Virus record (IMG/VR): IMGVR_UViG_3300021090_000060
Span: 1 to 40,149 of that record
DNA length: 40,149 nucleotides
Strand: one strand, 5' to 3'
DNA from: a virus
The position numbers were made by a program, and so were the translations under genes. This document shows positions 1,868-36,265 of this stretch, piece by piece (the stretch's first letter is position 1; every line of letters starts with the position of its first letter). Under the pieces are notes generated by a model, which was not told where the DNA came from, searched no databases, and worked only from the letters and a program-made list of their open reading frames with translations.

Positions 1868-2143
1868 ATGGAAAAGACCACCCCGAAGATCAACCTCTGC
1901 CCGTGCGAATCCTCGCTGATACACGCGCACGGCCACGACGCAGCGACCAACACGCTCGAGCTTCAGTTCAAGAGCAAGGGCGCCGGCGGCAAACGGTATC
2001 AGTACGCCAACGTCACGCCGGAGATGTACGCCGAGCTCTGCGGCGCCGAGTCCATCGGCAAGTTCTTCGGCGGGCGTATTAAAGGACAAGAAATTCACCC
2101 ATTCGTGCTGATCGAAGAGCGGAAGGAAGAAGAGTCGGCGTAA
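1868..2143 (+). CDS. KTSC domain protein
   Basis: 91 residues starting 6 bases after an AAGGAGA ribosome site. The order Glu-Ser-Ser-x-Ile, then Asn-Thr-Leu-Glu-Leu-x-Phe-Lys, then Tyr-x-Tyr-x-Asn-Val, then Ala-Glu-Ser-Ile-Gly-Lys-Phe-Phe, then Ile-Lys-Gly is the KTSC signature. This small alpha/beta domain is usually found alone in phages or near recombination and DNA-processing genes, and it is proposed to bind nucleic acid. It lacks the usual Lys-Thr at the core and has a Glu-Ser-Ser in that place. The stop codon overlaps the next start (TAATG), so translation of the HNH gene is probably coupled to it. The specific function is unknown. Confidence 0.7.
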   Translation: MEKTTPKINLCPCESSLIHAHGHDAATNTLELQFKSKGAGGKRYQYANVTPEMYAELCGAESIGKFFGGRIKGQEIHPFVLIEERKEEESA

Positions 2144-2652
2144 TGCTTTGCTCGGCTCTCAACTGCAATCAACAGGCGCACGCGCGCGGGTTCTGCAATA
2201 CCCACTACCGGAGGGTATTGGCTAACGGTAGTGCGGATGACGCTGCGATGCGCCGCGCCCCAAATGGCGACGGCTGGATCGCCAAGGGATACGCGATGGT
2301 CATGGACAACGGGGAGCGCAGGCCGGTGCACGTACTGATTGCGGAACGCGCGATTGGAAGACGGTTGCGGAAGGATCAGCCGGTCCATCACGCCAATCGC
2401 ATCAAGCTCGACAATCGGCCTACCAATCTCGTCGTGTGCCAGGACGAGGCTTACCACGCCCTCCTGCATCGACGCATCAGGGCGCTTGAACAGTGCGGCC
2501 ATGCAGATTGGCGCTCTTGTCAATTCTGCAAAAAGTTCGATGACCCGTCCAACTTAGTTCCACGGAAAAGCTCTCACTACCACAAGCATTGTGCAGCAGC
2601 CTACGAACGCAATCGCTCTCAACTCCGCCATCAGGAGGAACCACATGGCTAG
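2143..2652 (+). CDS. HNH endonuclease, free-standing, with flanking zinc fingers
   Basis: 169 residues. An N-terminal zinc knuckle (Cys3, Cys8, Cys18, His21) precedes a basic linker and an HNH_3-type core: VHVLIAER, then Val-His-His at 81-83, Asn at 86 and 91, and the Asn-Leu-Val-Val strand at 95-98. A second zinc site (Cys126, Cys129, His148, Cys150) closes the protein. Such enzymes cut or nick DNA at specific sites and are common mobile intruders in phage genomes. The gene is wedged between KTSC and ssb. It overlaps the KTSC stop by one base, its last 8 bases overlap the ssb start, and its 3' end contains the ssb ribosome site (AGGAGG), so the host operon stays translationally coupled across the insertion. 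Confidence 0.8.
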
Positions 2653-9250: not shown

Positions 9251-9454
9251 GTGGTCATTCGATCAGTGGGCCGAAGCCAAGGCCAATTACAACCTCTAAT
9301 AGATGGACTACCATTGACCATCGGACTCATTCTCGGCGCCGGGCTCTTCGTCACGGCCGCAGTGCTTGGCGAGCGGCACGCGCTCTATATCCCGGCGGTG
9401 GTTCTGCTCGCCGCGGCTACGGCAAATGTGATTGCTGGCCCACTAATCCCGTAG
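9251..9454 (+). CDS. Small two-helix membrane protein
   Basis: 67 residues if started at GTG 9251; a TTG at 9314 would give a 47-residue product that keeps both hydrophobic segments. The two helices (PLTIGLILGAGLFVTAAVLG and YIPAVVLLAAATANVIAG) are joined by a short charged loop with Glu-Arg-His. Size and topology would fit a small holin, but no lysin is visible nearby and the identity is open. It is the last plus-strand gene of the left arm; its final 12 bases overlap, tail to tail, the end of the giant late gene. Confidence 0.5.
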   Translation: MVIRSVGRSQGQLQPLIDGLPLTIGLILGAGLFVTAAVLGERHALYIPAVVLLAAATANVIAGPLIP

Positions 9455-12400
9455 TTCTCGCCGTACCTGGCCGCGAATTTCCGGTGCAGCAGAACGCACG
9501 AACCGTTGCTCGCGCGACATGCGCGCCTGCCGCACTCGGCTGCGGATTTGCGCGCTGGTTATACGCACTCTGAGCGATGGATTGTCCAGGTTCCAATCGT
9601 GCATCTTCTTCATAGCCGCGCGTACCACGTCCGGTTCTGCGTCAATGATCCCACGCGCCCACTGCTCGGCGATCTCGGACTCCATGCGCTTTTGCATGGC
9701 AATGTCCTGACGTACTTCGCCGATGATCTCGGATTCTCTGGCAACTTTCGCCGGTTGAAGCCCGGCCATCTTGAACACCGCGTCTCCGGGACTGACCTCG
9801 GTGATCTTCTTGCCCTTGGTGTCCCTCGCCTGTCCAGTGGTCAGCATCTCTATGCCCTTGGCGACGTTCTGAACTGCTACCGGCGCGGCCGACTTCACGG
9901 CACCGAACAGGTCGCCCTTGGCGATGCGTTCGATGGCTCTGCCCATCATCGTGCCCTCCACGGGTACGAACTGCCCCACCGGGCCGGCCAACTCTATGAC
10001 ATCGCGTGCCTTGTTCTCTTCCGAGAGTTTCAGCATGCCAGTACCCGGGATGAGGTTCTGGAAGCCCATGCGCACGCTCACGTCCACCGGCATCCACGGG
10101 AGGCCTGAGATGCCGTTCAGGACCACCCGCGCCATGTCAGGGCCCACTTGGGCTGTGACCCACTTGCGCAGCGACTTCTTCGTGTTCGTGGCGAAGCCCA
10201 TCCACTGACCGATGGTGTCGATCAGGTCTTCTGCATCCTCGGAGAACGGCAAGCCTTCAGCACCGGCGGCTGCGAGCAGCATCAGCACCATCAGGGCAAA
10301 GGCTTTGCGGTCCTTCTTGAACATGCGCTGCGCCAGCTCGAGATACGAAATCGAGAACTGTTTGAAAGTCATCACGGTTGCGCCAATAGGACCGCGCCCC
10401 CAATTCGGGCGATTTCCGCGGTTGTAGACGAACTGCGTCTCATGGACCGCATTCGCCGCGAAGGCATAGGGGTTCGGCATGCCCTTCTCCACCGCGATCC
10501 TGTAGGAGGCGATGAAGGTGGTCGAGCGGTTGAACTGCTCCGTGATCGAGTAGATCGATCCCCACAGAAAGCTCAGTTTGCGCAGGGCAAGGTTCTTGGC
10601 GATCGGCAATCCGCCGGTTTCAGCGCGGAGCTGGTGGATCTCTTGTGGGGAAACCACGCCCTCTTGCTTGGCGCGACGGTAGGCGTCACCAATGGCTCCC
10701 GTCAGCCTCTCCGTGCGAGTAGTGGCCGCTTGGGCGAGTTTCGCCGCGGCGTCGGCCGGGCTGGTGTACTGCGTGAGGTAGGGGCCCGTGACCAGGAACG
10801 GCTGCGTCATGTTCACCAGGCCGTGGGCAATAGACCCGCCGAGGAACTGCGCGAAGAGGAACCCGCGCAGGGCATGCGCCTCCTCCATCGGGTCCTGCAG
10901 GTAGCGCACCAGCTTGATGGCTTCGTCCTTCACGTCGCCGGCGCGGATGTCGTTCGACAAGCGCAGCATCTCGGCGCCGTGGTAGGCGCTCGAGGTCGCC
11001 CTGGCACTTGACACCGTGAAGCTCGCCAGCACGCGGGAAAGGTCGTCGGAGTACCCGAGCACGCCCTTCCTGTGGATGTGGCGCTTCAGGGCGCTGCGCT
11101 CGCCAACGGCCGCCTTCAGGAAGCCCTGAACGAGCGGATCCCGCGCGATCGGCTGCCCGTCCTCGTCGGTGATGTACTCGGCGAAGGTCTCCAGGGCGTC
11201 AAGGGACAGGCCTTGGAAGAGCCGCGCCTGCTCCACCGACAGGACCCCGCGCTCGAGCCGGGCTTCGGGGAACTCCTTGGCGAGCTCGCGGGCGGCCAGA
11301 TTCGCCTTGGTCTGGCTCTCGAAGGTGCCGAAGTAGCGTTGGTCCACACCACCGCCTGCACGATCCTGTACGACATGGATGGCGAAACGGCCAAAGCGCA
11401 TGGCCGGGAAGTACCCGTGCTCCTGAAGACCCTTGGTCTTCTCCACAACGTCGTGGACGGCCACCCTGGTGTCCTGCAGGGTAGCTATCTCCCGGCGGAC
11501 CTTGGCCACGCCAGCCTCGTCCTGGGCCTCCTGGGCGCGTTCCAGCTCTAGGGAGAGATCCACCACCGCGTCGTCGATCTTCTCGTCCACCACGGCTACA
11601 ACGTCGTCCAGGCTCATGCCGCGGTCAAAGCCAATGCCGTGGACCCTGACAAGCCGGTGGATGATAGACTTTCCCATCTCGTCCAGCGACTTCGTCACCG
11701 AGGCGAGGGTCTGGCGGTAGATGCCAGCCTGGCGGTCGTTCAGGCCAGTGAACACGGGAATGGTCACGTTGCCGTCCCGGGCCCGCCCGGTGCGAAGCTC
11801 CTCGTCCGACCACACTCGCCCGGTCAGGGGACTGCCGTTGCCCCACAAGGTCCCGGCATAGAGCGCCTTGGTCGTCGCCTCGATGTCGTCCTTGGAGGCG
11901 GATTTGCGCCCGAAGTCTGCGAACGAGTCGATCTTCGGCAGGAGGTCGCGCGCCATGTCAGCGGCTTCATTGGCGTACTTGGAAACGTCGGTGAGGAAGG
12001 CCTGGGACTCGTCGTACACGCGCCGAAAGTCGGCATTCGACAGAGCCTTGTGCTGCTGCGTCCCGATGGTTCTGTGCCACCAGTTGAACTTCTCGTCGGA
12101 GTGCAGCATGTCGCGCACGAACGACTGCGCATTGGCGGCGAGGCTGTCGCGCTCGTCGCCGGTGGTCTGACTGCCAGCGATGGGCGGTTGCCCGTATGGT
12201 GCCGCCGGCTGCCGGAGGATGTTCGCGTCGCTCTGTTGTTGCGTATAAGTCACATCGTAGGGTGCCTTGTTCTGCTCCAAGATGCCCGGTACCTTTGGCT
12301 GGAAAGGGTCATCCCCCCACTGTGCCGCACGATCGGCCTTGACAATTTCCGCGTCAGTCAGGACAATGCTATCTGCGCTCCGCGCTGGCAACTTCCCGGG

Positions 12401-15400
12401 GAATTGGACCCCGGATAATCTCTGCCACTCGGAGCGTTTTTCATTGTTGACGTACCGCAAGCCATCCTGAACCCATCGCACGATTGATCGTTGCGCGTTG
12501 TCCTTCGGATACACGCTCGCCACCACATTAGCGGCCACGCGGGCAAGTTCGCCGCCAGGATGAATCCCAACGATAACTGGGCGTCCATCTGATTTCACCA
12601 AATCCGTCACCACGACCAAAGAGCCAGCGGGGGCTATGGTGGACTCCGAATTCACAACGAAAACCGGATCGGCTATAGCGTCTGCGAGCACCTTCATTTC
12701 GCGCGAAATGACACCGTGATCGAACATGGCCTTGTCGGCGGTGGATTCGTCCATGCCGACAGGCAACTTTGGCATCCCAAGGCGAGTGAGAACGGCCGGC
12801 GTTTCCCCGAGGTAAATTGGTGCGCGACTGGATTCACCCCTCAAAATGGCGTCAATGCGGTCGGCAAGCGTAGCCTGTTGCGGCCACTGCATCTGCTCGG
12901 CGCGCAAGATTCCTGTCTTCGGCGTGAGGTCGGCGGTGGCTTTGACGCCGAGGGATGCGCGCGAAATCTCAGGGCGGCCGAATGGGTCAGCGGGGTCGCG
13001 GAAGCCAGTGACATCGGTTGCGAGATGGTTCTCGATCAGAAAGTCCAGCGATGCCGGGTTCTTGGAGATGACGAAGACGCCGTTGGGCGATCCGGTCATT
13101 CTGGCGAACCTGCGCACGCGGGCCATCGCGCGCATCTGAAGGGATTTTGTCGCCCCGCTCAGGGCTACCTCTGGAATCTCGGCGAGCGCCATGACCTGAC
13201 CACGGCCGCTGGTGCTAACCATGACGGCAAAACCTTCCTTCGCTTTCAGGGTGGAAGCTACCCGCGCGAGGGCCCCAGGGCCGTCGATGGTCTGCGAGAG
13301 CGCGTCGTGCCGCAGTTCCGGTTCTCCTCGAGGAGAACCGTGCCTGGTGACGCGGTGCATGGTATCGCCGCCAGCGTCGATGATCGAATACTCGTCCTGG
13401 TCGATGACGACGTGGCCGCGGAATCCGGCGAGATTGTCGGCGAACCGCTTTGTGATGCGGATGTCGGCCGAGCTCGGGGTAGAGGAGCCTGATGGATGGT
13501 TGTGCAGCACCCAGTACCCATCAGCCTCTAGGGAGTCCATCATCGCCTTGATGCCGGCAAGCGTCTCTTTCAGGGCTTTGAGGCCAAGGGCTTCCTGCTC
13601 ATCCTTCGGGGCGTTGCTCTTCACGGACTCGCGGAATTCCTTGGAGGACGTGAACGCCACGGCGCCGGGAAGTCTCGACGTGACTGCGGTATGGCCCACC
13701 ACGGCATCGCCCTTCGTGAAGAAGAAGCGCAGGGTCTCGAAACGCGGATCGCGCAGGATTTGCGCGAGGAGGGCGAGATCCTCAGCGGATGCGACTTGTT
13801 GGCCAATAAGTTCGGCGCCCTGGTGCTCGGTGAAGTCTTTCCAAAGCGCAGACGCAAGAAGGCTGGCCCCTTGTGCTCTGTCCCTAGAAAGAATGCCCTG
13901 TGCCGCGAGCGGTGCTATACTGTTTTTTTGACCAGTATGCTCACCGTTCACTGCTCCCATTGCGGCGCCGCGCTTAGTCGGAACCCCTACAGGGTTCTGC
14001 ATCACAGACGGCACTTTTGCAACAAACGATGCTATGGAGACTACCAAATCTCCAAGGGGGGCAAAACCTACGTGCACTCTACCAACCCTACCACTGGTAA
14101 GGGCTTGGACAAACATCGGTGCGTCATGCAGGAACATCTCGGGAGAAAGCTTCTCAAGTCTGAGCATGTTCACCACATCAACGGGAATGTGCGGGACAAC
14201 AGACTTGAGAACCTCGTCGTTCTCAGCCGCGGCGAACACCAGATCGCGCACAGCCGCCTGAAGTGGGACATCGAGGCCGCCCAAACCATGCTCCCTAAAA
14301 GCATCTGTGTGAACCGCATCGCTAAGAATCTCGGCGTCGCGGCCTGGAGCGTGCGAAGTGCGCTTCGCGCTCGTGGACTGATCGGTGCCAGTAAGGGCCC
14401 TGCTGCCCTTACTTGGGACATCGAGGCCGCCAAGAAGATGCGCGGCCTGGGCTTGAGTTTCTACAGAATCGGAAAGCTGCTCGGTATTGATGGCCCCACG
14501 GTTCACTCCGCCTTTAAGGTTCGCGGTTTGCACACCGTCCGCGGCACCTTGTAGGGCGCTTTCGTCTCCACGATTCCGATTGAATAAGGACTTGAGCGCG
14601 GCAATTCCGAGGGACTTCTGCTCTTCAGTGGTGCCGGGACGAGTTTCAACTTGGTCATAGGCGAGATCGAGTTGGGAGGGATTGTACGCCGCTTTTGGCT
14701 GGAATAGGGCCATGCCTTGCATGGCGCGATCACGGAGGCTGGGGGTGATGTCAAAGCCCGGCTGATTCTTCGTCGGTTCGCGCTCTGGCGTGTGTCCAGC
14801 CTCAAGAACTTCGAGCATGTCGAACGCCGTCACCCGCCCGCCGCCGAGCTTCTTGAGCACGTCGTTCGCGACATTCGGGACGATGGTGTCATAGAAGGCG
14901 AGCATCCCCCCCCCGCCTATCTTCAAGTCAAGGCCTGAGAGTCCGTAGTAGGCGAAATCTCCGGTGCCTTTCTTGGTCTTCGTGCGGAGCAGTTTGTCAG
15001 CGGCATCTTTGCCGATGAAGTCGGCTAGATTTTCGCGTGCCACTTCGCGCTGAATGACCGGGATGTTGTCCTTGATGGCGATGAGTTTCTGCGTCGCGGG
15101 GTAATACTGCACGGAGTCAATGCGCTTCGACAGATCGTAGCGGTCAACTTGTTGGGCGCCGGTGGTCCACGAAATACGCTCGAAGCCGTGTTCAGCTCCA
15201 TACGCGATCATGCGCTTCAGGGCCAGCGACAACCACGCTTCCGTTTTCTGAACGAAGGGGGCGCGCGGCACGGCGATTGCATCTCTCTTGTTCTCGCGGT
15301 CGGCCCACGCCTGAGCTTCGGTGCGCGTAGAGAATCCGCCTTCACCGCCACCGCCATCGTCCGCCGCTGACCATGTTCCGTCCTTCTGCTGCTCCACCTT

Positions 15401-18400
15401 GTAGTTTTGCGACTCGCCTTGGAAACCGTCGCGTCGGCCCTTGGCCGACCAATCCGATTGCCACTCTTCGATGAAAAGGACCTTGCGGCCTTCTGCATCC
15501 ACTCGCTCGTTGAAGCGAACATGGGCGAGGACATTCGGCTGGTCGAAGTGGGGGGAGCGGAATCGCTGTACGGGGTCGTTCTTGCCTTCGCTGCGACGCA
15601 CGATTGACTCCGGCAGCGTCAGCAGCAACTCGCGGTAATTCTTCCCGCCAGGCAGGGTGTAGGTCTCGAACTTCGTTCTGGCGCCAGCGTCCTTAAGGAC
15701 CTTGCGGGCTTCCTCTGCGCGAATATACTCCTCACGAACTTTGCCGTAGGCACGCAACTTTTCGATCTGCTCATCGTTCAGGCCAACGGCCCGCGCTTTC
15801 TCCTCCGCCTCCTTTGCCCCATACGCAGATGGGTCGTGCATCTCATGCGCCCACCACGGAAGATTCATGCGGTCAACGCCACGGATGGGTGGTATGGTCA
15901 CATCAATCTCGCGCCACATTACCGCTTGCTGCTCGCTGAGAGTCGCTGCCTTACGCGCCGCAGCGTCATACTCGGCAGCGGACTCCCCACCAAGCACCGT
16001 CTCCTCCACCCGCACGCCGTTCTCGGCGAGGAAGTCGAGCAGCGCGGATTTCTCCACCTTCCCGGTTTGGAGCGCGAGCCATTCGTTCACGCCAGACCAT
16101 TCAACTTCATCCTTTTTCACCCCCGGCAGTTGGGCGATAATGGCCTTCCACTCTTGCGCGGTGCCGGAAGCGCGCTTCAGGTCTTCGAGCTTGCGTGTCA
16201 GGTCGGAATACCAAGGGGACGCGACTTCGTAGGGTGCCTTGTCCTGTTCTGCAGTTGTCGCCGGGCCGCTTGGTTCTGCTGGCGTTGTCGTAGCCTCGCT
16301 ACGATTCGTCGGCTCTTGCGCGGAAGTGCCGACGTTTTGTACCGGCTTCGCCGCCTTCTCGATGGTGTCGGCAGCGGTGCGAAGTGCGTTCGCGGCCGTG
16401 GCGAGGAGGTCCTGCTGGCCCTTCGCGGCAGCTTGGTCGGCCGCACGGTCGGACCCGGCGAGTTTGAATTCCTCGGCCGGCGGCGCGGCCTCGCGGCGGC
16501 GCTTCTCTTCTTCGGCCTTGGTGCGCTCTGTTTCTTTGCGCTGGACTTCTTCCTCAGTCTCGCCGGCGAGGGCGAGGGCGGGGCTACCCTCCAATTCGCG
16601 CTTTGGAGGGGCGGCTGGCGCGGGGCGGTTTACTTCCGGCCTGTTTTGTTCAGTCTGAGTGAGCTTTTCAGCGGACGCTGAAACTACTTCTTCTCGGTCT
16701 TCTCCGGGTTCGCGCTCGCCTGCGGGTTCGGCTTCTGCTTCGCTTGCCGGTCCCACCGCTCCTGCGTCAGCTTCCGCGCCAGTTTTCGCACCGGCAGGGA
16801 CGCGCGTGTCTTCGCCGAAGAGCTTGTCAAGGTGGTCATCCTTCTCTTCCTCCGTCATTGTACGCCACGAATCTGGTACTTCCCCGGCTTCCGCCGAGAG
16901 CGCTTCTGCCTGGCTCAGGTTCTCCCTGGTCGCTTTCACTTCGGCCAGCATCGCCTTCACGATGTCCTTCTGCTTCGCCCCAAGTGGCTTTCCGGCGATT
17001 GCCTTCTCGACGGCCGCTTTCACGTCCTCTGGCGTAGCGCTGAAGCCCTTGGCCCACTCAGGTTGCCCGGCAAACACGGTTCGCCAGGCACCTTCCGCGT
17101 TCATCTCGCTACGCGAGCGAATGCCCTGCTGCTCATCGAATGCAGTACCGGCGCCAACAGCACGTCCGCCGCGCTCCAGGTGGCCGGCGTTCGCGGCCAT
17201 CGTGCGCAGCATTTCGTGCGTGTCCTCTGGAACCGTGATCTTGGCTTCCGCGGCCTTCGCCGCGGCGCGTGCGCGACGTTCGGCTGGCAACAGTCTGCCT
17301 ACGGCTTCCTTCCCGAGACCGGCTTCTGCCCCGGCTTGCGCCGCGCGTTGAAGATCCGCGTCGCCTTCGACTGCGCCTCGTTGTACGCCGGGCTGTCCTT
17401 CTTCGCTCCCTTGGCGAATTTGTTCCTCATTGCCTCGTACTGTTTCGGCATTTGGTGCTCCTTTCGTGATTGCTGCTGTACGCATTTCGAGTGCGTTTGT
17501 ACGAGTTTCGGCTACAGTCGTTGCTATGCCAGCAACGGGCGCTTTCAGCTCACCGCCCTTCGGTCCCCTCTCGCTCTTGTCGAACGCCCACGCCTTGAAC
17601 TGCGGGCTCGGCATGGAAACTATCGAGCCGATGCGCTTCTCAGCTTTTGCACGGTTGTCGTAGTTGCGCAGGTAGGCTTCGCGCGCCTCCTCCTCTGATG
17701 CGTACCCAGCCATTGGCTTGTGCTCGTCGAAGGCTCCGTCGTCGCGGTTCTGGTTGACCACGAAGTAGGTGCCGGTCCATTCCTTCGGCGTGCCCTTCTT
17801 GACGAACACGTCCAGGTGGTCCTTATCGAAGCCCTGCGTGCCGCGCAAATAGCCGTAGTGAACGTCCTGCATCTCCACGGACCACAGAGGCGGGTCGTTT
17901 TTCTTGTCGGTGCGCGTGGACCCCGCCGGGTTCTCGATCGACACGTCCATACCGTCCACCGTCGGGTGGCCGAGCTTGGCGTTGTTGGCTGCGATCTGCG
18001 GGGTCGTGGGCTCCGGGCGTTCGTTCTCCGGACTGCTCGCCGCCTCGTGAGCGGCGGCATCGACGGTCTCGCCGCTCAGTACATCGGCTTGCGGCGCGGC
18101 GGTGACTTCTTGGGTGCCTGCTGCGGACGCTTCTTGAGTCCCGGTTGCATTTGCCGGGGCATTGACGATCGGTTCATTGCCATCTGCGGTTCCTTTTTTG
18201 GTGGCGCCGACAGCCTCGGCGCGGGCCTTCACTTCCTTCACCGTGCGCTCGGCCTGCTGGCGCGCGGTCTCCTCTTTCATCTGGCGAGCGAGTTCACGCA
18301 TCTTGCTCAGGGAGCCGTTCGGGTCCTCGGTTTCTGGCCGGCCGCCAACGTGCGCGGCACCGCCGAATACACCACCTGTCAGGCCACCAATGGCGCCGCC

Positions 18401-19342
18401 GGTGAGCGTTTGGCCGACAACATCCTTCGAGGGATCCACCGACTTGTCGATGAAATCGCGGCGGGCGGCGCCGGAGATGTAGGCTTCCCCACCGGACTGC
18501 GGGGCTTCCTGCATGGTTTCCGTCAGCGCGCCGCGGCCAATGCCCTTCACCACTTCCTTCAGGCCGAAGCGCGCGCCGGGCTTGACCAACTCACCAAGGG
18601 CACCACCGCCGGTGAGTAGCGACACCCCGCCAGTCCATGGTGCGGTGCGCAAGAAGACCTGATTCGAGCCTTCGGCGGCAAGCAATTCCAGGGCGGTATC
18701 TGGGTCGTGCTCGGCGAGGAGTGCGCGGAAACGCGGGGAAGTTGAGGCGAGCTTTGCGATCTTGGCTGGATCGCCTCTGTTGGATTCGATCTCGGTCTGG
18801 AAGTCTGCGGCGTTCAGGGCGCCGGATTGGATACCCTCGGCAACGCCGAAACCGATACCACCCGGCGCGTTGCGCGCCAGCAGGCCTGTGAGGCCCGTGG
18901 CGGCTTGTGCGGCTTTGGGGATGACCTTGGCTACCCCGGCGGCCAAGGGACCGCCTACGGGCGCCATCATCACCGTGGAGGGCAAAGAACGGGCAGCGCC
19001 CATCAGGAGCGACTGGCCCCACTTGTCGGCAACCTTGAGGTCTGACAACCCTCCATCGAACATCGGCGTGGTCGCCGCGCGGCGCCCACCGGGGGTCATG
19101 CTTGTCAGTAACTCTTGCTCGAGCCAGTCCCCGGCCTTACGCATCCGGGTTCCGTAGTCAATGCCAGCCTTCTCGGCCACCCACCCGAGGCCCTTGGCAG
19201 TGTCGCTTACAAAGCCGGTCCCGACCTGCTTCAGGTAGTCGAGAGCGGAAGGGGACTTGGCACGCTCCTCGTCGGTGTCGCCGGAGTAAGGCTCTGCCTC
19301 GGGCAACTCGTCCAGGGCGCCCCTGAACTCGGTGACGGCCAT
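9443..19342 (-). CDS. Giant polyvalent PLxRFG-type protein, probably ejected with the DNA
   Basis: 3299 residues, starting directly after the previous stop. Domains read along the chain: Gly/Ala-rich amphipathic segments (about 110-350); an inorganic-pyrophosphatase-like domain (about 460-570; IENPAGSTR, HYGY, DHLDVFV, DEHKPM); a long charged coil (about 570-1060); a phage domain with FIEEWQSDW and SWTTGAQQ (about 1100-1560) ending in ALFQPK; a RadC/JAB metalloprotease-like domain with His-Asn-His-Pro-Ser-Gly near 1946; a MuF-C/PBECR-like domain with PVFVVNSES near 2230; the PLxRFG motif (here PAMRFGRF) near 2644; and a helical C-terminus with a hydrophobic stretch near 3010-3030. Such polyvalent proteins travel inside the capsid and enter the host at infection. 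Residues about 1597-1802 are antisense to a complete HNH gene and are probably not native. It is the last gene of the late arm. Confidence 0.9.
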   Translation of the reverse strand: MAVTEFRGALDELPEAEPYSGDTDEERAKSPSALDYLKQVGTGFVSDTAKGLGWVAEKAGIDYGTRMRKAGDWLEQELLTSMTPGGRRAATTPMFDGGLSDLKVADKWGQSLLMGAARSLPSTVMMAPVGGPLAAGVAKVIPKAAQAATGLTGLLARNAPGGIGFGVAEGIQSGALNAADFQTEIESNRGDPAKIAKLASTSPRFRALLAEHDPDTALELLAAEGSNQVFLRTAPWTGGVSLLTGGGALGELVKPGARFGLKEVVKGIGRGALTETMQEAPQSGGEAYISGAARRDFIDKSVDPSKDVVGQTLTGGAIGGLTGGVFGGAAHVGGRPETEDPNGSLSKMRELARQMKEETARQQAERTVKEVKARAEAVGATKKGTADGNEPIVNAPANATGTQEASAAGTQEVTAAPQADVLSGETVDAAAHEAASSPENERPEPTTPQIAANNAKLGHPTVDGMDVSIENPAGSTRTDKKNDPPLWSVEMQDVHYGYLRGTQGFDKDHLDVFVKKGTPKEWTGTYFVVNQNRDDGAFDEHKPMAGYASEEEAREAYLRNYDNRAKAEKRIGSIVSMPSPQFKAWAFDKSERGPKGGELKAPVAGIATTVAETRTNALEMRTAAITKGAPNAETVRGNEEQIRQGSEEGQPGVQRGAVEGDADLQRAAQAGAEAGLGKEAVGRLLPAERRARAAAKAAEAKITVPEDTHEMLRTMAANAGHLERGGRAVGAGTAFDEQQGIRSRSEMNAEGAWRTVFAGQPEWAKGFSATPEDVKAAVEKAIAGKPLGAKQKDIVKAMLAEVKATRENLSQAEALSAEAGEVPDSWRTMTEEEKDDHLDKLFGEDTRVPAGAKTGAEADAGAVGPASEAEAEPAGEREPGEDREEVVSASAEKLTQTEQNRPEVNRPAPAAPPKRELEGSPALALAGETEEEVQRKETERTKAEEEKRRREAAPPAEEFKLAGSDRAADQAAAKGQQDLLATAANALRTAADTIEKAAKPVQNVGTSAQEPTNRSEATTTPAEPSGPATTAEQDKAPYEVASPWYSDLTRKLEDLKRASGTAQEWKAIIAQLPGVKKDEVEWSGVNEWLALQTGKVEKSALLDFLAENGVRVEETVLGGESAAEYDAAARKAATLSEQQAVMWREIDVTIPPIRGVDRMNLPWWAHEMHDPSAYGAKEAEEKARAVGLNDEQIEKLRAYGKVREEYIRAEEARKVLKDAGARTKFETYTLPGGKNYRELLLTLPESIVRRSEGKNDPVQRFRSPHFDQPNVLAHVRFNERVDAEGRKVLFIEEWQSDWSAKGRRDGFQGESQNYKVEQQKDGTWSAADDGGGGEGGFSTRTEAQAWADRENKRDAIAVPRAPFVQKTEAWLSLALKRMIAYGAEHGFERISWTTGAQQVDRYDLSKRIDSVQYYPATQKLIAIKDNIPVIQREVARENLADFIGKDAADKLLRTKTKKGTGDFAYYGLSGLDLKIGGGGMLAFYDTIVPNVANDVLKKLGGGRVTAFDMLEVLEAGHTPEREPTKNQPGFDITPSLRDRAMQGMALFQPKAAYNPSQLDLAYDQVETRPGTTEEQKSLGIAALKSLFNRNRGDESALQGAADGVQTANLKGGVNRGAINTEQLSDSVETQAQAAHLLGGLDVPSKGSRALTGTDQSTSAKRTSHAPGRDAEILSDAVHTDAFREHGLGGLDVPLQAAVRDLVFAAAENDEVLKSVVPHIPVDVVNMLRLEKLSPEMFLHDAPMFVQALTSGRVGRVHVGFAPLGDLVVSIASFVAKVPSVMQNPVGVPTKRGAAMGAVNGEHTGQKNSIAPLAAQGILSRDRAQGASLLASALWKDFTEHQGAELIGQQVASAEDLALLAQILRDPRFETLRFFFTKGDAVVGHTAVTSRLPGAVAFTSSKEFRESVKSNAPKDEQEALGLKALKETLAGIKAMMDSLEADGYWVLHNHPSGSSTPSSADIRITKRFADNLAGFRGHVVIDQDEYSIIDAGGDTMHRVTRHGSPRGEPELRHDALSQTIDGPGALARVASTLKAKEGFAVMVSTSGRGQVMALAEIPEVALSGATKSLQMRAMARVRRFARMTGSPNGVFVISKNPASLDFLIENHLATDVTGFRDPADPFGRPEISRASLGVKATADLTPKTGILRAEQMQWPQQATLADRIDAILRGESSRAPIYLGETPAVLTRLGMPKLPVGMDESTADKAMFDHGVISREMKVLADAIADPVFVVNSESTIAPAGSLVVVTDLVKSDGRPVIVGIHPGGELARVAANVVASVYPKDNAQRSIVRWVQDGLRYVNNEKRSEWQRLSGVQFPGKLPARSADSIVLTDAEIVKADRAAQWGDDPFQPKVPGILEQNKAPYDVTYTQQQSDANILRQPAAPYGQPPIAGSQTTGDERDSLAANAQSFVRDMLHSDEKFNWWHRTIGTQQHKALSNADFRRVYDESQAFLTDVSKYANEAADMARDLLPKIDSFADFGRKSASKDDIEATTKALYAGTLWGNGSPLTGRVWSDEELRTGRARDGNVTIPVFTGLNDRQAGIYRQTLASVTKSLDEMGKSIIHRLVRVHGIGFDRGMSLDDVVAVVDEKIDDAVVDLSLELERAQEAQDEAGVAKVRREIATLQDTRVAVHDVVEKTKGLQEHGYFPAMRFGRFAIHVVQDRAGGGVDQRYFGTFESQTKANLAARELAKEFPEARLERGVLSVEQARLFQGLSLDALETFAEYITDEDGQPIARDPLVQGFLKAAVGERSALKRHIHRKGVLGYSDDLSRVLASFTVSSARATSSAYHGAEMLRLSNDIRAGDVKDEAIKLVRYLQDPMEEAHALRGFLFAQFLGGSIAHGLVNMTQPFLVTGPYLTQYTSPADAAAKLAQAATTRTERLTGAIGDAYRRAKQEGVVSPQEIHQLRAETGGLPIAKNLALRKLSFLWGSIYSITEQFNRSTTFIASYRIAVEKGMPNPYAFAANAVHETQFVYNRGNRPNWGRGPIGATVMTFKQFSISYLELAQRMFKKDRKAFALMVLMLLAAAGAEGLPFSEDAEDLIDTIGQWMGFATNTKKSLRKWVTAQVGPDMARVVLNGISGLPWMPVDVSVRMGFQNLIPGTGMLKLSEENKARDVIELAGPVGQFVPVEGTMMGRAIERIAKGDLFGAVKSAAPVAVQNVAKGIEMLTTGQARDTKGKKITEVSPGDAVFKMAGLQPAKVARESEIIGEVRQDIAMQKRMESEIAEQWARGIIDAEPDVVRAAMKKMHDWNLDNPSLRVRITSAQIRSRVRQARMSREQRFVRSAAPEIRGQVRRELRD
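13913..13921 (+). promoter_or_regulatory. Extended -10 promoter candidate for the nested HNH gene
   Basis: TGCTATACT gives an extended TG motif plus TATACT, one base off the sigma70 consensus. It lies 15 bases before the HNH start codon, followed by a run of seven T. No -35 match is seen at the right distance. It would let the nested gene be expressed independently of the opposing late transcript. Confidence 0.4.
13937..14554 (+). CDS. HNH endonuclease nested antisense in the giant gene
   Basis: 205 residues from ATG 13937; the frame continues upstream but that part is shadow. An N-terminal zinc ribbon (Cys6, Cys9, Cys28, Cys32) precedes an HNH_3-type core: Lys-His-Arg-Cys-Val-Met-Gln-Glu-His near 59-67, His-Val-His-His at 77-80, Asn82, Asn88 and Glu-Asn-Leu-Val-Val at 91-95. 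Two tandem helix-turn-helix repeats follow (about 110-147 and 160-197), each beginning Trp-Asp-Ile-Glu-Ala-Ala and ending in Arg-Gly-Leu; they probably read the target site. No ribosome site is clear, but an extended -10 lies just upstream. It runs opposite to the giant late gene and lies wholly inside it, in exact codon register, with no TTA, CTA or TCA codon to stop the other strand. Confidence 0.85.
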   Translation: MLTVHCSHCGAALSRNPYRVLHHRRHFCNKRCYGDYQISKGGKTYVHSTNPTTGKGLDKHRCVMQEHLGRKLLKSEHVHHINGNVRDNRLENLVVLSRGEHQIAHSRLKWDIEAAQTMLPKSICVNRIAKNLGVAAWSVRSALRARGLIGASKGPAALTWDIEAAKKMRGLGLSFYRIGKLLGIDGPTVHSAFKVRGLHTVRGTL

Positions 19343-28979: not shown

Positions 28980-30121
28980 TACGTTGCGCCTCCGAAGCTG
29001 TTGGTGAATCCCATGGCCTCGGCCAGGGTGTCTGGTACGGTGACGGTGTACTCGGTGGTGGCATTGGGTATGCCAGCTATCAACTCAGCGGCCGGGCTAC
29101 CGCTCTGGTTGATCGTCCAGACTTCGCCAGTCGAAGACGTGAATGAGGTATCTGACGTGCCTCGGTCATTGTTCGGATCGAACTTGGCGACTACGGTGCC
29201 GTCGATGCCGTTGCGGAGTTCGGCGTAGTAGACCTTGCCACTAAACGCACGAGAGTCATACTCCCAGGCCCAGACTCGCAACGCGGCAGTGCTATCGAAA
29301 ATTGAGCCTGCAAAACCGAACATTTGGTCTGTGCCAAGTTGTGTCCAAGTTACTCCGTCCTCACTTGTATAAAACTTCAGCTCAGTAGCACTCCGAGTCA
29401 CCCGGACCCAGTGTGGCGACCCATTCACGAAGCCTGTGGGAACGCTACTACTAAGCACACTTTGGGTAGACCCATCAACTGAGCCATGAAAGGACAATAG
29501 CCCTGGTCCATCAGAACTTACCGTAAGCGCATATGCCCACTGTCCTTGGGCGCCATATTTGCCTACTAGCACATTGGACAGGCTTCCTGGCGTCCAGTCA
29601 TCCATCGCCACTTTCACCCTGATATCGATATCCCCCGTGATCGACACTGCCGCGCTATCCGGCGTGCTGGCGTAGTTGCCGGAAGTGCCGGACAGACTCA
29701 GATACCCGGCGTTCCAGGTTGCGACTTGAGCCACCTTCGTCGATCCGTTGTAGCCCAAGATCGTCCGCGACTGCTCGCTTCCAGCCCCTCCGGTCAGCGC
29801 CAGCGTGCCGTTGATGTAGTCGCTCGCCACGCTCGAAGCATTCGTCGCCAGCGTGAGCGAGTTCGCGCTTCCAGCCTGCGCCGTGCCGCTGTGGTCAACC
29901 GCAGTACCGGGCGAGTCGTCGTCCCGATCCGGTCTCGGGTTCTTCAGCGCGATGCCCTCGTCCAGTCTCACGGGCTTCTCTGCTGGATGCGGTTCGTCCC
30001 TGCAACTCGGATGCACGCGCAACTTCGGGTTGTAGCCGTCGTGGACGAGCAGGCGGTAGGGGTACTGCATACCGCACGCATCGCAGTACGAAAGTGCATT
30101 TTTTCCGCTAGCGAATTTCAA
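28979..30121 (-). CDS. Zinc-ribbon/lectin-like (LamG-type) virion protein
   Basis: 380 residues from TTG 30121, chosen because GAGG lies 7 bases before it and it forms a TTGA overlap with the GIY-YIG stop. The N-terminal 45 residues carry Cys-Asp-Ala-Cys-Gly and His-Pro-Ser-Cys, a zinc ribbon found as a separate small protein in many phages. An acidic linker follows, then a Gly/Ser/Thr segment (SANSLTLATNASSVASDY) and a beta-sandwich region (about 140-340; DIDIRVKVAMDDW, WAYALTVSSDGPGLLSFHGS, HWVRVTRSATELKFYTSEDGVTW) with the strand pattern of concanavalin A/LamG lectins. It probably decorates the virion and may bind sugars. The zinc ribbon plus lectin arrangement looks like a gene fusion. 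Confidence 0.65.
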   Translation of the reverse strand: MKFASGKNALSYCDACGMQYPYRLLVHDGYNPKLRVHPSCRDEPHPAEKPVRLDEGIALKNPRPDRDDDSPGTAVDHSGTAQAGSANSLTLATNASSVASDYINGTLALTGGAGSEQSRTILGYNGSTKVAQVATWNAGYLSLSGTSGNYASTPDSAAVSITGDIDIRVKVAMDDWTPGSLSNVLVGKYGAQGQWAYALTVSSDGPGLLSFHGSVDGSTQSVLSSSVPTGFVNGSPHWVRVTRSATELKFYTSEDGVTWTQLGTDQMFGFAGSIFDSTAALRVWAWEYDSRAFSGKVYYAELRNGIDGTVVAKFDPNNDRGTSDTSFTSSTGEVWTINQSGSPAAELIAGIPNATTEYTVTVPDTLAEAMGFTNSFGGAT

Positions 30122-30759
30122 GCTGCTACCTCATGCGCGTGTTGCGGGTAACGACGCGCATACTCTCCGCGCCAACCGTCTCCGTAGTTGCGCTTCATGT
30201 TCGAGATGCGCGCGGCGCGGCGCCGGTTCTCTGTCTGCGCAGGCGTGCAGCGGTAGCCCTTGCTGTAGGCGTTGCCTTTACGAGCCGCGACTGCGCGCTC
30301 GCGGTAGATGGGATTTGCCCACAGTGCGCGTGCTGCCTCCGATCTCTGCGCGCTGGAAATGGGCACGGAACGTTGCGCGGCAATCATTTTGCTGCGGTGT
30401 TTTTGCCATTTGAGTTTCGACGCTGCACCCACCTTGCGCCTTGTCTCGTCGGTATGCACCATTCCCAAACTGCTGTGGCCACTGGCGCACTTTGTGACGT
30501 TGTAGGTGTATTTGCCGGTATCGAGGTAGCGTTGCTCAGCCTCTCTGTTTCTCGCCGGCTCCACGCATTCGAGCATCATGAATGTGAACGCGCCCTGACC
30601 GTACTCGCGCCACGCTTTCATCAGAGGCTTGCAGTGGTGCCCGCCTGAATGCAGCGACCCGCGGTGCCTGTTCCATCGCTTCGTGATGTTGTGCGAGGCC
30701 CCGACGTACATCTCCCCTGTGACGCGGTTCAGGATGACGTAGACGCCGCTCAAGCGCAT
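30118..30759 (-). CDS. GIY-YIG homing endonuclease with NUMOD3-type repeats
   Basis: 213 residues. The catalytic domain spans about 1-90: Gly-Val-Tyr (5-7) and Tyr-Val-Gly (18-20) stand for the GIY and YIG motifs, with Arg28 and Glu74 (in EAEQRYLD) as the expected catalytic residues. DNA-binding motifs follow: Ser-Ser-Leu-Gly-Met-x-His-Thr-Asp-Glu-Thr-Arg-Arg-Lys-Val near 96-110 fits NUMOD3, and further Arg/Ala-rich repeats extend to the end. The enzyme should make a site-specific cut that drives its own spread between phages. The gene lies between an adaptor and the lectin-like gene with overlaps at both ends (TGATG and TTGA), preserving translational coupling. Confidence 0.85.
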   Translation of the reverse strand: MRLSGVYVILNRVTGEMYVGASHNITKRWNRHRGSLHSGGHHCKPLMKAWREYGQGAFTFMMLECVEPARNREAEQRYLDTGKYTYNVTKCASGHSSLGMVHTDETRRKVGAASKLKWQKHRSKMIAAQRSVPISSAQRSEAARALWANPIYRERAVAARKGNAYSKGYRCTPAQTENRRRAARISNMKRNYGDGWRGEYARRYPQHAHEVAA

Positions 30760-31415
30760 CAGTACGTACCTATCCCGAAAGACGTATCGCTTCTCTCTCT
30801 GTCCTCGCCTTTGGCGAGCTTGAAGGCGCGCTCGGCCTTCAGTTCAAGCTTGTCCTGCCGATCTGCAGCCCACTTCTCGGCAAGGCGGGCAGCAAGACCG
30901 CCAGCAAGCGCGTCCCACCACAGGAACGGCACGTCGGGCGTCTCCTGCCCAGCAGTCGCCGTTTGGATCTGCCGCACGCGGTAAGCACGAAGCACGTCGG
31001 TCGAGTTCTCCGGCACCTGCCAGAGCTTGTACGAGCCAGCCTTGCGGTCATACCAGATGCCGCTCGGCAGCCCCTCGGCGGTCTTGTCGGGGATCATGTG
31101 GTACTGGTCCCGCGTCATGTGGTGCACGGCCGTGTCAACGTCGCTGCGACGGATCACGGCCTCGAGGATGGCCAAGGTTCCGGTGGGCGCCGCGTAGTCC
31201 CCATCGCTCACGGTGAGCGTCTGGGTAAACTCCTCGACCGTGAATAGATGCACGCCGCGGTTGCCCCACTCGACGAACATCAGGTTGATCGAGCGCAGGG
31301 CGGACGTGAAGTGCTGGCGCGTGAGCTTGGCGGGATCCTTCTGGATTTTCTCGAAGGCTTCCTCGACCACGTCACCGTAATCTGGCGCGAAGTTGTATAG
31401 ACCTGATGTGCTCAT
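30759..31415 (-). CDS. Phage head-tail adaptor/completion protein
   Basis: 218 residues. The start (SGLYNFAPDYGDVVEEAFEKIQ) and the block LRSINLMFVEWGNRGVHLFTVEE are strongly conserved in neck adaptor proteins of podovirus-like phages, followed by SDGDYAAPTGTLAILEAVIRR and the Tyr-x-x-Ile-Pro-Asp-Lys-x-x-x-Gly-x-Pro segment near 115. The C-terminal helices (WDALAGGLAARLAEKWAAD, LKAERAFKLAKGEDRERSD) complete the fold. It should sit at the portal-tail junction beside the second adaptor encoded downstream. Start overlaps the NUMOD gene stop by 4 bases (ATGA). Confidence 0.7.
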   Translation of the reverse strand: MSTSGLYNFAPDYGDVVEEAFEKIQKDPAKLTRQHFTSALRSINLMFVEWGNRGVHLFTVEEFTQTLTVSDGDYAAPTGTLAILEAVIRRSDVDTAVHHMTRDQYHMIPDKTAEGLPSGIWYDRKAGSYKLWQVPENSTDVLRAYRVRQIQTATAGQETPDVPFLWWDALAGGLAARLAEKWAADRQDKLELKAERAFKLAKGEDRERSDTSFGIGTY

Positions 31416-32005
31416 GCGTAAACGAACTCCATGCCGCGAATCTGTTTGCGTTGGCCAGCAGCCACCTTTCTAATGCTGGTGATGTGAAAACCTAGATCAA
31501 TAGCTGCCGCTCGACACGACTCATACGAGATGCCCGTCTGCACACACTTGATCGGCTTGCGTCGCTTGGCTGCCGATGCGGCTCCGCTGATCTTCAGTGC
31601 TTCTATGATGTGATCCGGCGGTCTCGGCACACCACGGATCGCTTTTGTTGCATTCGCCTTGGCGGTGGTCGCTGGGTCACGCTTCTTCCCAAGCCAGTAG
31701 CGCGTGGGATTGGCGAGCTTGGCCGCGCGAATTTTCTCCACCGTTCGCGGATCACGCTTCCTTCCCTTCCAGTATCCAACGCGACCCATGAGCTTGCTGC
31801 TAATCAAAGCCAAAGTCTCCGGCGAGTGCCGATACCCCAGAGACCCCTTGTGTGGTCGGTTCTCCGCTTTGCGCATCATGGCGCGCAACTTATTTGCGGC
31901 CCCGATCTTCTCCAACTCCTCGGCGATGACCAGAACGGCCCGGTAGCCGTGCGCGAGAGGCTTGATGGACTCCACGGCCTGTTTCACTTCTGGGCTCATG
32001 CTCAT
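31412..32005 (-). CDS. NUMOD3/NUMOD1 protein lacking a nuclease domain, possible fusion
   Basis: 197 residues. Residues 1-48 (VKQAVESIKPLAHGYRAVLVIAEELEKIG) resemble the helical start of an ordinary phage structural-region protein. From about 50 the character changes: Gly-Tyr-Arg-His-Ser-Pro-Glu-Thr and Gly-Arg-Lys-Arg-Asp-Pro-Arg-Thr-Val-Glu-Lys-Ile are NUMOD3 repeats, and about 150-197 (CVQTGISYESCRAAAIDLGFH...IRKVAAGQRKQIRGMEFVY) is a NUMOD1-type helix-turn-helix module. These parts normally trail a GIY-YIG or HNH nuclease, but no catalytic motif is present. The gene overlaps the micro-ORF upstream by 4 bases (ATGA) and the adaptor downstream likewise. It may be a decayed homing endonuclease joined to the 5' part of a native gene. 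Confidence 0.7.
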   Translation of the reverse strand: MSMSPEVKQAVESIKPLAHGYRAVLVIAEELEKIGAANKLRAMMRKAENRPHKGSLGYRHSPETLALISSKLMGRVGYWKGRKRDPRTVEKIRAAKLANPTRYWLGKKRDPATTAKANATKAIRGVPRPPDHIIEALKISGAASAAKRRKPIKCVQTGISYESCRAAAIDLGFHITSIRKVAAGQRKQIRGMEFVYA

Positions 32006-33020: not shown

Positions 33021-33584
33021 CTAAAGCAAGAATCCTCTTGCTTGCATGAACTTGATCGGGTCCTTGGCGCCCTTGCTGCAATTGCAGATGGCGCATAGGA
33101 GTTGAAGGTTGTACTTGTCGTTCGTGCCGCCAGCGGCCAATGGGACGATGTGGTCAAGGTGATGACCCCCGGCCAATGGTTCGCGGCACACAGCGCACAA
33201 TCCACGCTGCAAGCCTTTGAGCGCCACGATGTCTGCTTTCTTGTGAGTTCCACCAGCGGCAGACTTCTGAGCGCGGCGCGTCGCCTTGTAGAAGCGCTTC
33301 GCATCCGGGTTGGCTGCGCGCCATTCTTTCTGGTAAGCCAGCCTCCTGGCTTTGTGCGCTTCGTAACGCTTGGCGTCTTTTTGCTTCAACTTCTCAAGAT
33401 TGGCGGCGCGCCACCTTTTTGCAAACGCCTTGACCTTCTCGAGATTAGCTGTTCGCCACGCTGCAGTCGCCATACGAGCCAGTTCCTTATTGGCAGAGAG
33501 GTACTTTGCGGCATGCGCCTTCACTCTCTCTGGATTGGCTGCGCGCCACGCCGCTTCAGCTAGGCGTTTTCTCTTGATATCCAT
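33021..33584 (-). CDS. HNH endonuclease with tandem W-R-x-A-N repeats
   Basis: 187 residues from ATG 33584 behind GGAG; the frame extends to a TTG at 33632. Residues 10-100 hold four spaced copies of a short basic unit built on Trp-Arg-x-Ala-Asn (12-17, 43-47, 58-62, 88-92), probably alpha-helical DNA-binding repeats. The HNH core follows: Cys130-x2-Cys133, Leu-Asp-His-Ile-Val-Pro-Leu at 143-149, Gly-Gly-Thr-Asn, Asn159-Leu-Gln and Cys164-x2-Cys167. This is the classical HNH fold with a structural zinc. It sits between the beta-helix gene and a beta-rich virion gene with short spacers on both sides. Confidence 0.85.
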   Translation of the reverse strand: MDIKRKRLAEAAWRAANPERVKAHAAKYLSANKELARMATAAWRTANLEKVKAFAKRWRAANLEKLKQKDAKRYEAHKARRLAYQKEWRAANPDAKRFYKATRRAQKSAAGGTHKKADIVALKGLQRGLCAVCREPLAGGHHLDHIVPLAAGGTNDKYNLQLLCAICNCSKGAKDPIKFMQARGFLL

Positions 33585-33653
33585 GCCATGCTCCAAGCAT
33601 GAGAAACGCCCCAGGGCCGATTGCAGGCCCAAGGGCGGATCGTGATGCGACTA

Positions 33654-34673: not shown

Positions 34674-34702
34674 GATTAACTACGTACTGCAACTGCCTAC
34701 GC

Positions 34703-36229
34703 TTATGGCGAGGGCAGCCTGTTGCTCTTGAATTCGTACTTGCTCGAACCGCAGTCGAAGAGGACGTGGTAGCCAGCCATCGCCGCGAGCTCGATCTGCG
34801 TTTTCGTCACGTCGAAACGCTCTCCGAGCGCCAGCCTGAGCCGCGGCTTCGTGAGCGCGGCGCGATGCTTGGGATGCAGGCGCTTGTCGAACACCATCAT
34901 CCCTGGAGTTCCATCGCCCACCTTCTCGAATCCCGCTGCCTTGTAGGCTCTTCCCGTGAACCAGCGATTGTCCACGTAGGACACCAGCCGCTCTGGCCCG
35001 GCGTGCTTGATGACGGCCGCGAGGAGCCGCGTCAGGCCCCCGACCACCACCGCAGACGTGGCGTAGCGCACCACTTCCAGAACCCCGTGGGCGCGATCCT
35101 TGGCGTCCCCGTAGAACTTCGGCGGCGCCACATGCAATGCGGCCACCGGCGTTCCGTCCAACATCTTCAGCGCGTACACCTTCCCGCCGCGCAGCGCGAA
35201 ACCCTGATGATGGTTCGCGTCGAAGAAGCCCTTGTACTCCGATGGCTCGCCGAGACTCACCACGCACTTCCTGGCGAAGACCCGCGCCCCCACGGATGCG
35301 CCCAAGGCGTGCGAGATCATCCGGTAGACCAGCGCCTCCTTGTGCTCGAACTCCGATTCGAGGACGTGGATCAAGCGAATCCCGACCTCTTGCGCGGCCC
35401 GCTGTTTCTTCGCCAAATGTTGGCGATCCGGGTTCACCTTCACCGAATGCCAGAAGATGCCGTTGTACTCGATCGCCAGAGCTTTCGAGGGCACGTAGAT
35501 GTCGAGCTCGTAGCGCTCCACGACCCCGCGCACCCTGGTCTTCGCATCCGGGCAGGCAGCCAGCACGAACTCGAAGAGCCTCTTCTCGGCCGCCGACATC
35601 TGCTTGGCGCACGTCGGACAGACCTCGCCCTTCAAGTGATTGTTCGGCGACATCCGAAACGGCCCGTGCTTCGGACAGACGATCTCGACCTTGCGGCTCG
35701 ACTTGTCGTACTTCACCGCCGAGTAGTCGAAGCTCTTGCCGTGCTTCGCTTTCGCCTTCTCGATGAAGGTCTGCGCAGCCACGGCTCGCATCCCCTGCCC
35801 GGCACGTCGAGCGACGTAGCACTTCCAGCAGCCCTGTCCCTTCCACAGGCCGAAGATTGATCCTGCGTACGGCCCGTGCTCCTGGCACGTTACCGTGACC
35901 GGCGTGTGTAACTTGACCGGCGTCTCGAGCAAGAGGTCGATGCTCAAGCAACGCTGCTGCAGCGTCTTCTCGATGCGCGCGCGATTCGCATCCCAAGCGT
36001 AGGCGGTCTTCCCGCGCGCACGTAAAGGTCTCGCGCAGGCATCGCACCCGTGCCCCCTGGCGTGGCTGTTCAAGTACTGGAAGAACGAACCGTGCACTGG
36101 GCAGATGATTTCCACCTTCTGCTCCGAATGCAGATAGGCGACGCGCGAGTAGTCGTAGCGCCCGCCATGCACTGCAATGGCCGCCGCCAGCAGTCGCTGC
36201 CCCACTCCACTTCTTTTTTGAACCGTCAC
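34703..36229 (-). CDS. EDxHD-type homing endonuclease with zinc-ribbon repeats
   Basis: 508 residues from GTG 36229. Residues about 12-66 and 155-208 are two clear copies of a zinc-ribbon repeat (His-Gly-x-x-Tyr-Asp-Tyr-Ser, Val-Glu-Ile-x-Cys-Pro-x-His-Gly-x-Phe, Cys-x2-Cys), with a divergent copy near 105-138; this is the DUF723-like module. A Vsr-like nuclease domain follows (about 213-300) with Tyr-Glu-Leu-Asp-Ile-Tyr-Val-Pro, then Ile-Glu-Tyr-Asn-Gly-x-Phe-Trp-His-Ser (253-262) and Arg-Leu-Ile-His-Val-Leu-Glu-Ser-Glu. That is the EDxHD signature of large phage homing endonucleases. The last 200 residues are an extra domain (N-acyltransferase-like strands, role unknown). The gene lies between the capsid terminator and its own terminator. 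A longer overlapping frame (34680-36248) is shadow. Confidence 0.85.
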   Translation of the reverse strand: MTVQKRSGVGQRLLAAAIAVHGGRYDYSRVAYLHSEQKVEIICPVHGSFFQYLNSHARGHGCDACARPLRARGKTAYAWDANRARIEKTLQQRCLSIDLLLETPVKLHTPVTVTCQEHGPYAGSIFGLWKGQGCWKCYVARRAGQGMRAVAAQTFIEKAKAKHGKSFDYSAVKYDKSSRKVEIVCPKHGPFRMSPNNHLKGEVCPTCAKQMSAAEKRLFEFVLAACPDAKTRVRGVVERYELDIYVPSKALAIEYNGIFWHSVKVNPDRQHLAKKQRAAQEVGIRLIHVLESEFEHKEALVYRMISHALGASVGARVFARKCVVSLGEPSEYKGFFDANHHQGFALRGGKVYALKMLDGTPVAALHVAPPKFYGDAKDRAHGVLEVVRYATSAVVVGGLTRLLAAVIKHAGPERLVSYVDNRWFTGRAYKAAGFEKVGDGTPGMMVFDKRLHPKHRAALTKPRLRLALGERFDVTKTQIELAAMAGYHVLFDCGSSKYEFKSNRLPSP

Positions 36230-36265
36230 GCATTTTATTGTACAGCATATTTCCCGTAGCGGCTC

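Follow-up and report, generated by a model that had tools for sequence, protein, structure and literature searches.

How can a nuclease gene lie inside a protein-coding gene without breaking it? To our knowledge, a mobile gene that sits within a coding gene is assumed to be harmless only where splicing removes it; inteins are removed by protein splicing and introns by RNA splicing. The locus described here raises the question of whether splicing can be dispensed with. In the window, by which we mean the whole 40-kb virus record that was analysed (40,149 nucleotides), an HNH gene lies on the strand opposite to a giant coding gene whose reading frame stays open through it. This nested, antisense arrangement was confirmed as real. 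We propose, with a probability of roughly 0.85, that its HNH gene comes from a free-standing homing lineage able to live within coding sequence by antisense read-through. This explanation was built from sequence comparisons, and no expression, cleavage, homing or proteomic data stand behind it.

The giant host gene and the HNH gene within it

The giant gene (9443..19342, minus strand) has 3299 codons, and its frame is open through the insert. Its product carries InPase, LPD-like, RadC/JAB and MuF_C domains. A polyvalent protein combines several polyvalent-associated domains in one polypeptide, and the presence of InPase, RadC and MuF_C places the giant protein among them. The native RadC/JAB region, which resumes past the insert, occupies 13061..13882 (minus strand; Pfam RadC, E 6.4e-7), and the AlphaFold2 model of the JAB part resembled RadC 2qlc in a Foldseek comparison (TM, target, 0.73). 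No matches were obtained when the giant gene was used as a nucleotide query against phage records, nor when viral contigs were initially scanned at the protein level with the central part of its product.

The HNH gene itself (13937..14554, plus strand) encodes 205 amino acids and runs antisense to the giant gene in exact codon register. The protein matched Pfam HNH_3 (PF13392) with an E value of 3.9e-10 and 39.6 bits, against a gathering cutoff of 24.8. The original prediction, made from the window sequence alone, described a complete plus-strand HNH gene wholly within the giant minus-strand gene, made up of a zinc ribbon, the HNH core and a pair of helix-turn-helix repeats, in exact antisense register and apparently without TTA, CTA or TCA codons. 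The Pfam match and the 3299-codon open frame bear out the first part, all of the named modules were seen in the AlphaFold2 model (mean pLDDT 85), and TTA, CTA and TCA are indeed absent from the 205 codons. The start of the gene, placed at 13913, has to be moved: it is most likely the ATG at 13937.

The zinc ribbon (13952..14032, plus strand) is formed by Cys 6, 9, 28 and 32 of the HNH protein. It is followed by the HNH core, residues 60–103 (EHVHHING...DNRLENL...H; 14114..14245, plus strand), the antisense of which appears as PVDVVNML in the giant protein. Across 28 aligned HNH homologues the four zinc cysteines (C6, C9, C28 and C32) were invariant, as were the catalytic His and Asn residues (H79, H80, N82, N92 and H101). 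Two helix-turn-helix units, at about residues 112–146 and 162–195 (14270..14521, plus strand), correspond to AlphaFold2 helices H112-118/H125-132/H136-145 and H162-170/H175-182/H186-195. A Foldseek search with the HNH model returned no matches at E ≤ 0.001, with I-HmuI matching weakly, and a PDB sequence search with the HNH alignment found no HNH nucleases, its weak matches being designed-repeat, zinc-finger and similar proteins. Upstream of the gene, a weak -10-like hexamer, TATACT, is located at 13916..13921 (plus strand), 15 nt before the ATG; a consensus scan identified no full promoter ahead of the gene, and no clear Shine-Dalgarno sequence was found before its start.

The inserted segment and its empty site

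The size of the insert was determined by ungapped joining of the window against the empty site in L010, a viral contig that is 49% identical to the window over the RadC/JAB region. L010 is continuous across the site (...ALFFRDRNAGASLLASSLWKDF...), whereas the window at the same site reads ...SLFNRNR, then the insert, then AQGASLLASALWKDF.... At every best breakpoint the missing stretch measured exactly 693 bp, which is divisible by three. The inserted segment (13883..14575; 231 codons), the edges of which are uncertain by a few bases, consists of the HNH gene (618 of the 693 bp) together with some 54 bp ahead of the ATG and some 21 bp past the stop. On the other side lies the native left flank (ALFQPK...YDQVETRPGTTEEQKSLGIAALKSLFNRNR; 14576..14711, minus strand), which shares homology with its counterparts in L010 and in Nitrosomonas JAB proteins. 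With L010 empty, the window occupied and a difference of 693 bp, there is a presence/absence polymorphism at one site whose empty form is exact, one criterion for a homing endonuclease gene.

A clean insertion of about 205 non-native residues had been expected between the domain ending in ALFQPK and the RadC/JAB domain, and alignment with relatives lacking the HNH gene had been put forward as the check. The alignment with L010 and other relatives showed a clean in-frame insertion as foreseen, with a size of 231 rather than 205 codons. The insert does lie past the ALFQPK end, by about 40 residues, but it falls within the N-terminal part of the JAB region rather than ahead of it. Relatives that lack the HNH gene and still encode the segment would have refuted the proposal; they were looked for, and the segment was absent from L010 and also from the JAB proteins of Nitrosomonas plasmids and genomes and of other phages.

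AlphaFold2 modelled most of the insert at 25–65 pLDDT, compared with about 80–97 for much of the JAB region. The alignment used for the JAB region with the insert contained no antisense homologues, which limits what the low confidence can be taken to mean. No Rfam family matched the insert at the gathering score, and the two weak matches below threshold belonged to unrelated sRNA families. An intein was excluded because the HNH gene lies on the strand opposite to the host frame.

Codon use in the window and across the nested family

In the exact antisense register, stops arise in the host frame only from TTA, CTA and TCA, which can be avoided by synonymous choice, and only this register allows this freely. 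Reasoning from the genetic code, a free-standing HNH homing gene that landed antisense, in frame and in this register would be nearly harmless provided that it avoided the three codons. Codon usage predicts about 2.1–2.6 of these forbidden codons in the window HNH gene, with a probability of 0.07–0.11 of finding none; within the genes of this phage, 29% of 205-codon stretches are just as open in antisense. Chance is thus not excluded for the window alone (P 0.07–0.29). The original prediction had left selection and high GC side by side as causes of the missing codons. The window by itself indeed cannot decide between them, but the 24 other nested HNH genes described below can, and it is the family-level evidence, not the window, that makes the open frame more than chance.

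A count of TTA, CTA and TCA in the other homing genes of the window had also been suggested as a control. Four further homing-type genes are present, HNH (2143-2652, plus strand), GIY-YIG/homing-like (30118-30759, minus strand), HNH-like (31412-32005, minus strand) and endonuclease VII/HNH-like (33021-33632, minus strand), and they carry one to three of the codons each. Separately, the ORF at 34680-36248 (minus strand) uses CTA for 14 of its 48 Leu codons, unlike other window genes, and has no PHROG match; its strand or gene call may be wrong.

When viral contigs were scanned with the HNH protein, the best matches were nearly all antisense, in exact register and within giant open frames. Further scans and a uniform reanalysis yielded 25 nested HNH genes on 23 viral contigs, the window included, with two contigs carrying two each; 24 nested relatives thus lie on 22 other viral sequences. 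The host frames extend for hundreds of codons beyond the HNH gene, usually on both sides, and the hosts contain ART-PolyVal, InPase, RadC and LPD22 domains. The family was defined by exact register, absence of TTA, CTA and TCA, an open host ORF and polyvalent homology on both sides, all of which the window satisfies.

Forbidden codons were then set against expectations from the codon usage of the same loci. In 26 nested candidates, 112 were expected and none was seen. These candidates include L342, later dropped because its short, Ala/Arg-rich antisense frame at a GC of 0.65 was taken as chance; for the 25 genes retained, about 110 were expected and none was seen. In contrast, 192 other HNH homologues contained 884 forbidden codons against 792 expected, and 15 of them had none, against 13.3 expected. 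Genes in L163, L168, L197, L218, L222 and others, which have zero forbidden codons and no long host frame, were counted as free. The nested loci include some of 45–50% GC, with expected counts of 12.5 (L360), 8.5 (L190), 8.2 (L188) and 8.0 (L387).

There is some circularity in this sum, since an open frame was among the features by which nested genes were recognised. As a control, HNH genes were picked solely by antisense polyvalent homology on both flanks, with the frame ignored. This choice returned 17 genes. None of them contained a forbidden codon, against about 69 expected from the summed per-gene expectations, and in every one the host frame was open. The flank-only choice therefore answers the circularity for 17 of the 25 nested genes; a limit that remains is that the flank library consisted of the nested hosts and three other polyvalent proteins. 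No nested members were found in phage records, plasmids or bacterial genome samples, and for the large bacterial samples these are weak negatives, as no more than eight candidates per genome were scored. All members found so far come from uncultured metagenomic contigs.

Landing sites, constraint and competing explanations

The host flanks of the nested genes fall into at least 15 site classes, a recurrence beyond what the window sequence alone could reveal. Empty-site relatives were found for the window, L333, L248_1408, L360, L336 and L330_7004, and at the ART site shared by L101, L102, L103 and L108 the empty-site relatives have a shorter native loop. In a tree of the HNH proteins the nested genes clustered, with 6 state changes compared with 22 in shuffles; the tree is short and poorly resolved, and three free genes within the nested cluster (L181, L104 and L192) have three forbidden codons each.

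Comparison of nested pairs showed that mismatches are commonest at HNH third positions (e.g. 38/22/62 for L189–L191) and that HNH identity (53–75%) exceeds antisense identity (39–59%) in seven of seven pairs. These results suggest that the nuclease is selected for its sequence, while the antisense reading mainly has to stay open. A relic was also found. This HNH gene (L178:7324-7740), the second within the 2299-aa host frame of the L107/L178 contig, is broken by two stops in its own reading frame, and the host ORF is still open. A host frame that outlives the decay of the nuclease is as expected if selection keeps that frame open.

These comparisons bear directly on the rival idea that both strands encode functional proteins, the antisense segment being a genuine domain of the polyvalent protein that is maintained by selection. 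PVDVVNML and its neighbours form a conserved motif recognisable across members, which speaks for such a domain, but this motif is the exact complement of EHVHHING. Antisense identity below sense identity, changes concentrated at HNH third positions and relatives that do without the segment all weigh against a selected domain, as does the low AlphaFold2 confidence for most of the segment, subject to the alignment used; we consider it very unlikely. Nor do we give much more than nominal weight to the idea that the open antisense frame is merely a by-product of high GC and codon bias, with the host gene unprotected. The probabilities calculated for the window would permit it. Across the family, however, 25 of 25 nested genes are open, several of them at 45–50% GC where 8–12 forbidden codons are expected in each, free HNH homologues show no avoidance, and 17 of 17 frames are open among the genes chosen by their flanks; the codon counts and the flank-only choice refute it for the family.

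It is also conceivable that the giant gene is divided by the HNH gene and yields two polypeptides, or that the HNH gene is carried by an intron. Aeh1 nrdA/mobE and group I introns would be the models, and for phages both kinds of arrangement are well documented (PMC2988022). Yet in none of the 25 cases does a stop separate the two halves, an absence that splitting would not require, no intron match was obtained from Rfam, and the insert holds little besides the HNH gene. We regard a split gene or an intron as scarcely credible.

We therefore return to antisense read-through as the preferred explanation, and the earlier interpretation of the window is supported. The element would land in the host gene antisense and in frame, in exact codon register; its sense codons would avoid TTA, CTA and TCA, leaving no stop in the host frame; and the giant protein would carry some 230 additional residues at a position that tolerates them. 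The HNH protein, expressed from the opposite strand, may then spread the element by cutting giant-gene alleles that lack it in co-infecting relatives, and repair would copy the insert. What the sequences themselves show is a clean in-frame insertion, the exact register, the family-wide absence of the forbidden codons, an intact conserved nuclease, empty sites, many sites and a relic with an open host frame. The remainder is inference: that the nuclease is active, cleaves and homes, that it is expressed from the antisense strand, and that the antisense segment is translated and tolerated. It is probable that this constitutes a third strategy, beside introns and inteins, for life inside conserved coding sequence: a homing gene whose complement is a stop-free, in-frame insert, from a lineage pre-adapted by the loss of TTA, CTA and TCA that moves among many sites in giant polyvalent genes.

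Known systems share parts of this arrangement. The mob genes of T4-like phages are likewise small, intron-less HNH nuclease genes, present or absent among relatives, but the free-standing homing genes of T4 are intergenic or split the gene that they enter (PMC2988022), whereas the window HNH gene lies inside a coding frame that remains open. A nuclease gene is likewise placed in a coding gene, with the host function spared, in the case of inteins and intron-encoded homing endonucleases. They are spliced out, however, while in the window no intron was found, the HNH gene runs on the opposite strand and read-through by the host appears likely. As summarised in PMC6649704, the palindromic elements of Rickettsia are mobile sequences in protein-coding genes that are retained in the host protein without abolishing its activity, as we suppose for the insert; they are palindromic and carry no complete nuclease gene, unlike the insert with its opposite-strand nuclease. 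In Mycobacterium phage Bipolar and relatives, an HNH relative also lies within another gene, a DNA methylase (L247:1743-3749), but on the same strand as the methylase and with one forbidden codon.

The host genes, with their InPase, ART-PolyVal, LPD22 and RadC domains, correspond to the polyvalent proteins of phages and conjugative elements (PMC5512222); a term search of that survey gave nothing for homing or antisense, and HNH once, in another context. We found no description of antisense in-frame homing genes among the open-licence papers searched, subscription papers being outside the search.

The nested family suggests that harmlessness can be reached without splicing, by coding on one strand and remaining readable on the other. 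If so, it would be a natural, recurring example in which one set of codons keeps a reading frame open on either strand, and the loss of three codons would be its measurable signature. Parts of published giant polyvalent proteins may then be antisense nuclease and not protein domains, and gene finders that pick one strand will hide such nested elements.

Some features at the edges of the nested genes were also recorded. A sequence resembling a Shine-Dalgarno site directly precedes the start of about ten nested genes, e.g. GAAGGAGtaacgtcATG in L188. The sequence just upstream of the HNH start is alike in L187, L188, L248 and L360, possibly a leader that is shared and carried with the element. 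L107 has a different left context, yet its short right flank (KIPHPNEY) resembles that of the ART-site members and is possibly a trace of co-conversion.
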